A stretch of DNA of 23,057 bases, taken from positions 1 through 23,057 of IMG/VR virus record IMGVR_UViG_3300043313_000144. The stretch is one strand, 5' to 3'. The position numbers were made by a program, and so were the translations under genes. Under the pieces are notes generated by a model that ran no database searches, was not told the origin of the DNA, and saw only the letters and a program-made list of their open reading frames with translations. Within the stretch, counting starts at the first letter, position 1. Each line of letters starts with the position of its first letter. Of this stretch, positions 14,766 to 20,738 are shown in pieces. Source of the stretch: a virus.

Positions 14766-14868
14766 TTAGCGTCCTTCCTTGGTTAGAATGGTCAGGGGCC
14801 GCCTTCATGGAAGGAAGGCGTGAACCTACACGTCGACGGCCCCGTCACCTGCTGCCTGCCTGACAGGA
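14766..14868. other. Intergenic region with nested inverted repeats
   Basis: This gap lies between the HNH gene and the downstream head gene. An outer 7-bp stem pairs 14795-14801 (GGGGCCG) with 14837-14843 (CGGCCCC). An inner 7-bp stem pairs 14800-14806 with 14814-14820 around a 7-base loop; the two share bases 14800-14801, so they compete slightly. No U-run follows, so a classical terminator is unlikely. A processing site or remnant of the HNH insertion is possible. Confidence 0.45.
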
Positions 14869-15441
14869 TCAAGCCGCAGGATGGTTTATTGCATCTCGTC
14901 CATGGTTGGCGTGAAAACCGAGTGAGGCTTCAACTATTTTTCTGGCCTTTACTGCATCTTCCATCTTGTCAAACGTCCCGATCGTAATCGAGGCGACCCA
15001 TTTTTGCTGCTTCTTGCTGAAACTGACGCCGTGATGACCGGATGTATTGGTTCGCCGCAAAGCGAGATTTCTAAAATTATCGGAGCGAGAGCCATTACGC
15101 AGGTTTGACCATTTATTGTTGCTGCGGTTGCCATCAATATGATCGATCTCTACAGGATCTTCACCAGTCATAATTTTATGCGCGACACGATGCACCAGTT
15201 CAGTGCGATAATTCAGGTGCATGTAGCGGTAACCATCGGCTTTCAGACACGCCGCCGACTTACCTGCCCAGCGGCTATTCCACTGATTGCAGGCGTGTTC
15301 TGCAGAACGTGGGCGGTCCTTTGATTTGCCGACTGTGAACAGTGTCACGGGTCGCACTCTCCAGTAGATTTCGCCTGTGTCCGGGTCGTATTTCAGAACC
15401 TGATCTAAAAACGCTTTCGAAGGCAGTTCACGTACTTTCAT
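14869..15441 (-). CDS. HNH endonuclease with AP2-like domain (190 aa)
   Basis: I chose the ATG at 15441 (MKVRELPSKAFLDQVLKYDP), because GGAG lies seven bases upstream and the frame further upstream runs through the leader hairpin. Residues 9-30 (DPDTGEIYWR) are the usual N-terminal strand. The HNH core is at about 81-119: VHRVAHKIMTGEDPVEIDHI, then DGNRSNNKWSNLRNGSRSDN. Residues 130-160 (NTSGHHGVSFSKKQQKWVAS, then ITIGTF) are an AP2-type DNA-binding repeat. It is a free-standing homing nuclease between capsid and head genes. Base composition is much lower in G+C than around it. Its translation is probably gated by the leader hairpin. Confidence 0.87.
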   Translation of the reverse strand: MKVRELPSKAFLDQVLKYDPDTGEIYWRVRPVTLFTVGKSKDRPRSAEHACNQWNSRWAGKSAACLKADGYRYMHLNYRTELVHRVAHKIMTGEDPVEIDHIDGNRSNNKWSNLRNGSRSDNFRNLALRRTNTSGHHGVSFSKKQQKWVASITIGTFDKMEDAVKARKIVEASLGFHANHGRDAINHPAA

Positions 15442-15498
15442 TGGAAGTCTCCGGTCTGGTTTGGTTAACCAGACCAGACCACCAGACCGGAGCCTCCA
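15442..15498 (-). promoter_or_regulatory. Leader hairpin that buries the HNH ribosome-binding site
   Basis: On the minus-strand RNA the arm TGGAGGCUCCGGUCUGGU (15498-15481) pairs with ACCAGACCGGAGACUUCCA (15460-15442). This gives about 18 bp with one bulged A, one G-U pair and a 20-base loop. The 3' arm contains the GGAG ribosome-binding site and ends at the base before the AUG. The inner 12 bp are perfect. An alternative inner hairpin (15453-15461 with 15467-15475, 9 bp, 5-base loop) would also cover part of the site. Confidence 0.7.
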
Positions 15499-15534
15499 CG
15501 TCAACAGATATAACCTGATAAAGATATAGACGGG

Positions 15535-16572
15535 TTATGCTGCCGGGTTCGAGTCATATAAACGCCAATTAAACATAGGATTGGTCATCGTCATTTCACC
15601 CATCCACCCGATGAACTGAGCAATAGCGTCCTTATCTATTGGCATCTGGCCGTCGCCTTCGAATAATTTGTCGAAGTTACGCGAGGGGTGATAGCGCAGT
15701 CGCAGCGTGTCGGTGTTAAGTCCAAACGTGGTGTTCGCCGGCATGTTGGAGCCGATACCGCCGTCGAGCACGATCTCGGCGCGCTTGCCGCCGCCGATGT
15801 ATTCCAGCGCCGAGAACCCGAGGCTGCCCAGCGAGGTATTGCTGGTCTGGCGCTGGATCGCGACAGTGGCGGCGTCATACGCTGCATAATGCTCCGGCGA
15901 CATGATCAAGAGGTCGGCGTAGTCACGGCCGCGCGACTGCTTGGTCATGGCGTAGTTGAGCATCGGCCGGATCGTGGTGGAGTTGATCTGCGTGCCGATC
16001 GGCGACAGCGACACGGTGCCGGCCGCGCCGGAGGCGTCGAAGGTCTTGGTCTGCCAGATCGTGGCAGTGGCGCGGTCGATGCCGCCGTAGATGCCGGTGT
16101 TCGGCAGCACCGGCACGGCGGTGGCGAGGCCAGTGATCTGCTTGTTGCCGTTGGCGGTGCCGTCAGAGTAGATGCCGGCGTCCATGGCATCTTCCAGCGC
16201 CTTCTCGGCCGCCGTCAGATAGCTTTCGAACACGTCCATCAGCTGGGCTTCGCCCTGGTTGTTCAGGATCTCCTGCAGCGACAGGATGATCGGAATGACA
16301 ACCATTTTAGGCGTGTACACAGCGTCGTTGAACAGGTCGATCGCCGGGTTGAGCAGCTGGTCATAGCCGGAGTACCACTGCGCCACCTGCTTGCCGATCT
16401 GCAGGGTCTGGCGGATGGTGGGACCGGAGTAGGTCTGCCACAGGCCCTTGCGCTTGAGCACGGCCAGTAGCGCGTTGTTGTTGGAAACCATATCCTCGTA
16501 GCTGGCGGATCGATCTTCGACCGCCATGGACAGTACCTGCTGGTACTGCGCAGCAGTAGCGATGTTGGGCAT
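15535..16572 (-). CDS. Major capsid protein (345 aa)
   Basis: The ATG at 16572 has GGGAGAGG upstream. The protein begins MPNIATAAQYQQVLSMAVED and contains IRQTLQIGKQVAQWYSGYDQ, FESYLTAAEKALEDAMDAGIYSDG, and RDYADLLIMSPEHYAAYDAA followed by IQRQTSNTSLGSLGFSALEY. This pattern and length match capsid proteins of podoviruses with P22-like portals, which have the HK97 fold. It directly follows the scaffold gene. No protease gene or cleavable N-terminal arm is seen, so the scaffold is probably separate. The last 60 codons have distinctly lower G+C and other codon choices than the rest, next to the HNH gene. Confidence 0.88.
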   Translation of the reverse strand: MPNIATAAQYQQVLSMAVEDRSASYEDMVSNNNALLAVLKRKGLWQTYSGPTIRQTLQIGKQVAQWYSGYDQLLNPAIDLFNDAVYTPKMVVIPIILSLQEILNNQGEAQLMDVFESYLTAAEKALEDAMDAGIYSDGTANGNKQITGLATAVPVLPNTGIYGGIDRATATIWQTKTFDASGAAGTVSLSPIGTQINSTTIRPMLNYAMTKQSRGRDYADLLIMSPEHYAAYDAATVAIQRQTSNTSLGSLGFSALEYIGGGKRAEIVLDGGIGSNMPANTTFGLNTDTLRLRYHPSRNFDKLFEGDGQMPIDKDAIAQFIGWMGEMTMTNPMFNWRLYDSNPAA

Positions 16573-20153: not shown

Positions 20154-20189
20154 ATTTTCTCTCCTGAAGGTTTGTGTTACGAAAGCGCA

Positions 20190-20217
20190 GCGACCAGACC
20201 TTGCCGGGTCTGGCCGC
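20190..20217 (+). promoter_or_regulatory. Hairpin in the leader of the plus-strand HNH gene
   Basis: A 7-bp stem, CCAGACC (20194-20200) with GGTCTGG (20207-20213), has a 6-base loop and is extended by three more pairs beyond an A-C mismatch (20190-20192 with 20215-20217). It lies 33 bases before the chosen ATG and does not cover the ribosome-binding site. The same heptamer pair forms the core of the leader hairpin at 15442-15498. Confidence 0.5.
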
Positions 20218-20249
20218 CACTTAACACAGCAACCTGTAGAGGGGGTGCC

Positions 20250-20738
20250 ATGCTCAAGATTGATCTTAGTGGACGTCGCTTCGGTCGCCTAATTGTTATC
20301 AAAGATGCAGGAAGAACGAAGATAGGCGCAGTTGTTTGGCTCTGCCGATGCGACTGTGGAGCAGAAACAAACGTACCCAGTTGGGATCTAAAAAGCAGCA
20401 ACACAGCCTCCTGTGGGTGCGGCGTTGGCGTAAAGCATGGTCACACCAGCAATGGGTTTCGTTCGCCGACCTATTACTCGTGGCTGAACATGATCCAACG
20501 CTGTACCAATTCTGCTAACACTTACTTTCATAACTACGGTGGACGCGGCATTACAGTTTGTGAACGCTGGCGCAATTTTGAAAACTTCCTTAGTGACATG
20601 GGCGAGCGGCCTCCCCACCACACGATTGATCGCATCGATAACGAACGCAGTTACCAACCCGATAATTGCAAGTGGTCGACCAGAAAAGAACAGGCTAAAA
20701 ACAAGCGTAAGCGTCGTCCTCATCTCCCATCCTCGTAA
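20250..20738 (+). CDS. HNH endonuclease on the opposite strand (162 aa)
   Basis: I chose the ATG at 20250 (MLKIDLSGRRFGRLIVIKDA), which follows AGGGGG at five bases; the longer frame upstream runs through the leader hairpin. Residues 28-62 hold a Cys-rich pair (WLCRCDCG, SCGCG) typical of a small zinc ribbon. Residues 75-150 hold YYSWLNMIQRCTN, YGGRGITVCERWRNFENFLS, and HTIDRIDNERSYQPDNCKWS, the HNH-like part of a family widespread in phages. It is the only plus-strand gene. Its end overlaps the convergent 428-aa gene by 19 bases. No promoter could be identified. Free-standing mobile gene. Confidence 0.82.
   Translation: MLKIDLSGRRFGRLIVIKDAGRTKIGAVVWLCRCDCGAETNVPSWDLKSSNTASCGCGVGVKHGHTSNGFRSPTYYSWLNMIQRCTNSANTYFHNYGGRGITVCERWRNFENFLSDMGERPPHHTIDRIDNERSYQPDNCKWSTRKEQAKNKRKRRPHLPSS

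Follow-up and report, generated by a model that had tools for sequence, protein, structure and literature searches.

The locus examined here raises the question of how a nuclease gene lying directly behind a major capsid gene is expressed, and whether the stable hairpin between the two genes governs it. In the window, i.e. the whole 23,057-nucleotide stretch of viral DNA that was analysed, the capsid gene (capsid_maj_Podo; 15535..16572, minus strand; NCBIfam NF033394, E=6e-81; PHROG 9953, major head protein) is followed on the same strand by a gene for a 190 aa HNH endonuclease (14869..15441; Pfam HNH_3, E=1.6e-11; PHROG 99, E=7.5e-51). The spacer between them is 93 nt long (15534-15442), and its minus-strand segment 15498-15442 forms one hairpin with a computed energy of -34.0 kcal/mol. 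A first-pass annotation of this DNA had described a 57-base leader between the capsid and HNH genes; 57 nt is the length of the hairpin proper, whereas the entire spacer is longer. Its description of the hairpin itself (about 18 bp with one bulge and one G-U pair, at 15442-15498) was correct in both coordinates and pairs. The outer helix comprises 18 pairs between the 5′ arm (15498-15481) and the 3′ arm (15460-15442), with A15448 bulged and a single G-U pair (15494-15446), and encloses four further inner pairs. The Shine-Dalgarno (SD) sequence GGAG (15449..15452) lies entirely within the 3′ arm, 7 nt upstream of the AUG of the HNH gene (15441-15439), and the arm ends directly before this codon, so the proposed overlap of hairpin and ribosome site is borne out by the sequence and the pairing.

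The annotation had staked its reading on a fold better than that of shuffled sequence. None of 200 dinucleotide shuffles of 15498-15442 was as good (mean -18.6 kcal/mol, sd 3.2; z -4.86), and the same hairpin was recovered in the wider minus-strand RNA 15540-15400, which the annotation had proposed for folding (z -2.78). When masking was quantified as the free-energy cost of opening the SD region, the capsid-linked HNH gene was the extreme among 21 start sites in the window, at 21.4 kcal/mol compared with 1.0-9.9 kcal/mol for the others, and the two other HNH genes of the window were unmasked (5.7 and 6.2 kcal/mol). The hairpin begins 36 nt after the capsid stop codon, which, judged from the usual ribosome footprint, would be too distant for it to be melted by a terminating ribosome. 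An upstream in-frame TTG start (15504), from which translation would run through the hairpin, was also considered and rejected, as the frame is closed in one relative (L084, TGA before the ATG) and the extension is not conserved.

Comparison with capsid relatives drawn from IMG/VR indicates to which of the two genes the hairpin belongs. In most of these relatives a spacer of roughly 90-260 nt separates the capsid gene from the next gene with no HNH gene between them, and the others have an HNH gene; the closest relative (L002, capsid 94% identical) is among those without it. The gene is thus present or absent at one site in close relatives, as is typical of mobile genes. The hairpin core was absent wherever the HNH gene is missing, in all capsid loci that were fetched, which assigns the hairpin to the inserted gene and not to the capsid gene.

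The boundaries of the insert are also informative. The capsid protein of the window ends in DSNPAA before its stop codon, and the 3′ end of the HNH gene (14869..14886, minus strand; N-HPAA and stop) resembles a displaced capsid tail; in the window and in five further loci (L090, L095, L099, L100, L190) the HNH protein ends in NPAA or HPAA. In two loci (L060, L040) the same capsid-tail DNA directly follows the HNH stop codon. Three loci without an HNH gene (L042, L054, L072) have kept a second capsid-like tail downstream of the capsid stop codon, and L054 also retains an HNH remnant of 27 C-terminal residues. The insert thus appears to replace the capsid tail, and the simplest reading of these sequences is that the element enters the last capsid codons, supplies a tail copy of its own and, when lost, leaves a scar. 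The three scars and the remnant in L054 suggest cycles of insertion and loss. The first-pass label of a homing-type gene is in line with the presence or absence at one site, the capsid-tail arrangement, and the HNH_3 and PHROG 99 matches, which are those of a nuclease putatively capable of cleavage and homing. The possibility of a group I intron-encoded endonuclease was rejected, as no Rfam intron match was obtained in the window at E<=1 and the capsid frame is intact upstream. A third HNH gene of the window (PHROG 374; 20250-20738) is located on the plus strand, opposite to the operon, and a weak PtaRNA1 match on the other strand (20183-20257), far below the gathering score, covers its start.

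In this family of soil phages, masking of the ribosome site is shared by the relatives in which an HNH gene occupies this position. The annotation had proposed a search for the same leader in related phages; the SD was masked in 27 of 27 distinct HNH leaders at the capsid-downstream site, with opening costs of 11.3-21.4 kcal/mol (median 15.9). The median was 5.0 kcal/mol for the other starts in the same loci (n=317; p 2e-17 against the same-site leaders) and 4.3 kcal/mol for HNH homologues elsewhere (n=78; p 5e-13). As the homologues elsewhere are mostly unmasked, masking as a general trait of HNH_3 genes was rejected. About 6% of ordinary genes in these loci are masked to a comparable degree. 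The positive control, I-TevI of phage T4, had an opening cost of 11.2 kcal/mol, and nine of its T4 neighbours had costs of 0.4-3.6 kcal/mol. In three loci the start of an upstream gene of the same operon is also masked by a hairpin (L006 316, L012 452 and L016 1659; 15.7-15.9 kcal/mol).

However the stem sequence differs, the 3′ arm always contains the SD, immediately ahead of the AUG. In six distant loci (L098, L099, L108, L190, L163, L204) the stem sequences are unrelated and still complementary. Many stems show no resemblance by eye, as with CTCCGGTCTGG, CTCCTGTTCTGG, TCTTATGTTGG, CTTCTCAGTTGG, GTCCTCCTTG and CATCCTATCCTCTT, all of which have their complementary strand across the SD. In a sister family (L037), 6 of 17 pairs are changed on both sides and still paired, which was matched in none of 500 shuffles. 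Within the subfamily of the window, pairing of the variable outer arms is better with the native partner than after partners are exchanged (p 0.0028); the 12-bp core stem is near-invariant in the ten closest leaders and hence uninformative for covariation. The masking rule is not universal for capsid-linked HNH genes, because in two Sulfitobacter phages, in which a related HNH gene lies behind a head gene, the hairpin leaves the SD uncovered. The earlier proposal that the hairpin hides the nuclease ribosome site on read-through RNA of the capsid gene is strengthened by the folding energy, the compensated and replaced stems, the restriction to loci with an HNH gene at the site and the I-TevI control, all of which make a function in silencing the nuclease probable.

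The leaders also contain a candidate route by which such a block could be avoided. A conserved TTGAC(G) motif (15499..15504, minus strand), a candidate -35 element, lies immediately upstream of the hairpin, and a candidate -10 element (TGGTCT, 15476..15481) lies 17 nt from it at the inner end of the 5′ arm, with a predicted transcription start near 15469. In the close family the TGAC of the -35 candidate is invariant and its first T is present in 9 of 10 members, amid variable surroundings. In all 27 leaders the best sigma70-like pair is placed with the -35 element 55-66 nt and the -10 element 32-42 nt before the AUG, at a spacing of 16-18 nt, and the predicted starts fall near the loop. The summed promoter score, obtained with a weight matrix that is a textbook approximation, was 181 (69.7 +/- 11.1 in shuffles), and a fixed-position scan, which covered only the stretch where the -10 element would lie in the hairpin, gave a median of 7.2 against 0.1 at random positions. 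The pattern was noticed in the same leaders that were used to test it, with only L169, L192 and the cultured Rhizobium phage RHph_Y1_10 added later; L169 and L192 agree with the arrangement. The second HNH gene of RHph_Y1_10 (L245 4791), unrelated in sequence to that of the window, has the same hairpin and a candidate internal promoter (TTGAAA-17-TACATT). Truncating the RNA at the candidate start lowers the median SD opening cost from 15.9 to 2.5 kcal/mol, and from 13.1 to 2.9 kcal/mol in the RHph_Y1_10 leader. The -10 element of the window itself is poor (p_random 0.05), and a standard, stricter scan of the window leader found no promoter. The candidate elements (TTGAC-17-TNNNNT) do not fit the T4 late promoter type. 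A search for T7-type RNA polymerases that detected the T7 positive control returned none in 15 relatives, which fits the use of the host polymerase.

We propose that the hairpin acts as a translational lock, which would be carried along by a mobile, free-standing HNH_3 gene inserted at the 3′ terminus of the capsid gene. On capsid read-through RNA, the 5′ arm is predicted, from computed and compared structures, to pair with the SD region, and ribosomes would be unable to start the nuclease. RNA from the sigma70-like promoter would begin near the loop and lack the 5′ arm, so that the SD would be exposed; this step draws on the family-wide pattern, and the promoter would be weak in the window. 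The nuclease would then be made in small amounts from a host-polymerase promoter and probably not during massive late transcription of the capsid gene. We assign this explanation as a whole a probability of roughly three in four.

The same hidden ribosome site could also operate with no internal promoter, the low level of nuclease coming from rare breathing of the stem, RNA processing or, as the annotation had suggested, a switch to a shorter hairpin. Such a hairpin exists as an alternative pairing (GGUCUGGUU-AACCA-AACCAGACC; 15453..15475, minus strand) in competition for the 3′ arm of the long one: with GGUCUGGUU (15475-15467) paired to 15461-15453, the corresponding sub-RNA folds at -17.1 kcal/mol and GGAG is left outside. 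The close family shows no variation in the 5′ arm of the short hairpin, and this, like the weak -10 element and the empty standard scan in the window, speaks for regulation of this kind. However, the long hairpin is about 17 kcal/mol more stable than the short form, which makes an unaided switch unlikely; of the earlier suggestion, the second hairpin is borne out as an alternative pairing. In three loci (L091, L092, L081) the segment aligned to GGUCUGGUU is the main 5′ arm, lengthened to mask the SD. An explanation lacking a promoter also leaves aside the conservation of TTGAC amid variable sequence and the family-wide pattern with 16-18 nt spacing and the -10 element in the hairpin. We regard it as rather unlikely, and release by a transcript that starts inside the hairpin is better supported than a switch via the second hairpin.

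Two further explanations assign the hairpin another role altogether. The palindrome could be a DNA site for the HNH protein or another regulator, with the RNA fold incidental; auto-repression has reportedly been seen for I-TevI, the sequence TGGTTAACCA is perfectly palindromic, and the core is near-invariant in the close family. The unrelated stems and compensated changes, however, point to selection for pairing and not for sequence, and the outer arms co-vary, so that we consider this improbable as the main function; a protein-binding site may nevertheless exist alongside control at the RNA level. Even less probable is a role chiefly in ending, stabilising or processing the capsid mRNA, as a terminator, 3′ shield or RNase III site. 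The position of a long, stable stem right behind the capsid gene would suit it, and relatives without the HNH gene also have hairpins between the capsid gene and the next gene; yet the hairpin lacks a U-run and the terminator scan was empty at this position, the SD lies in the 3′ arm by the AUG regardless of stem sequence, the hairpin core is missing where the HNH gene is missing, and many HNH-less loci, like the window, have a different conserved element near the next gene. An Rfam search returned no family match at the leader.

Downstream of the HNH gene, the window contains a conserved GC-rich stem (14772-14843, minus strand) before the following gene. Its loop holds CCUUCCUUCC, which is complementary to the SD of that gene (AAGGAAGGA). 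The element occurs in 37 of 113 capsid loci (32 distinct) and has no Rfam match; six of its stem pairs are changed on both sides (0/500 shuffles). It may form a pseudoknot between loop and SD that controls translation.

Control of homing genes by hairpins over the ribosome site was previously described for T4-type phages. Here, in another group of phages, masking is the rule at a single insertion site, and the stems have only their shape in common. This suggests that a nuclease placed beside a highly transcribed gene generally needs to stay silent on read-through RNA. The approximately 27 leaders are a natural series for studying how such locks evolve, and RHph_Y1_10 provides an example in a cultured phage, in which an HNH gene of separate sequence is arranged alike. 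Our wider proposal is tentative, and we hold it at slightly less than even odds: masking hairpins with a built-in host-type promoter would have arisen, or been formed anew, on several occasions among HNH genes linked to capsid genes in phages outside the T4 group, with a timing the reverse of that in T4 (early nuclease from its own promoter, locked during late capsid transcription) and with insertion by swapping capsid tail codons for the element's own copy.

Among known systems, the T4 genes I-TevI, I-TevII, I-TevIII and segB have hairpins at their ribosome sites, which late transcripts avoid owing to the position of their promoters (PMC2988022). The likeness to I-TevI, which the first-pass annotation had pointed out, is closer than it stated, as the leaders also carry a candidate promoter overlapping the hairpin: in both cases read-through RNA is predicted or known to fold into a very stable hairpin over the ribosome site, and RNA from the T4 promoter cannot form it (PMC2988022), as would hold for RNA from the promoter candidate of the leaders. 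In T4 these promoters are late ones and the I-Tev genes are located in group I introns, whereas the gene of the window is a free-standing HNH_3 gene behind a podovirus-type capsid gene with a sigma70-like promoter candidate; because this candidate is not of the T4 late type, the timing is likely reversed. According to the account of Aeromonas phage Aeh1 cited in PMC2988022, mobE is also a free-standing HNH homing gene with a masking hairpin and a promoter that escapes it, and differs in being embedded in the ribonucleotide reductase gene of a T4-like phage. A stable hairpin likewise directly precedes seg43(25) of Aeromonas phage 25, with the ribosome site outside the stem (PMC2988022), a type to which the leaders of the Sulfitobacter phages come close. 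PMC10448857 describes HNH homing genes that stand free next to essential genes of phages, capsid genes among them, and the words "hairpin" and "promoter" do not appear in its main text; the gene of the window is likewise free-standing beside an essential structural gene. The reading of the first-pass annotation is thus largely supported and extended: the control would follow the design known from T4-type phages, and it differs in phage group, insertion site and type of candidate promoter, and hence in the likely timing.
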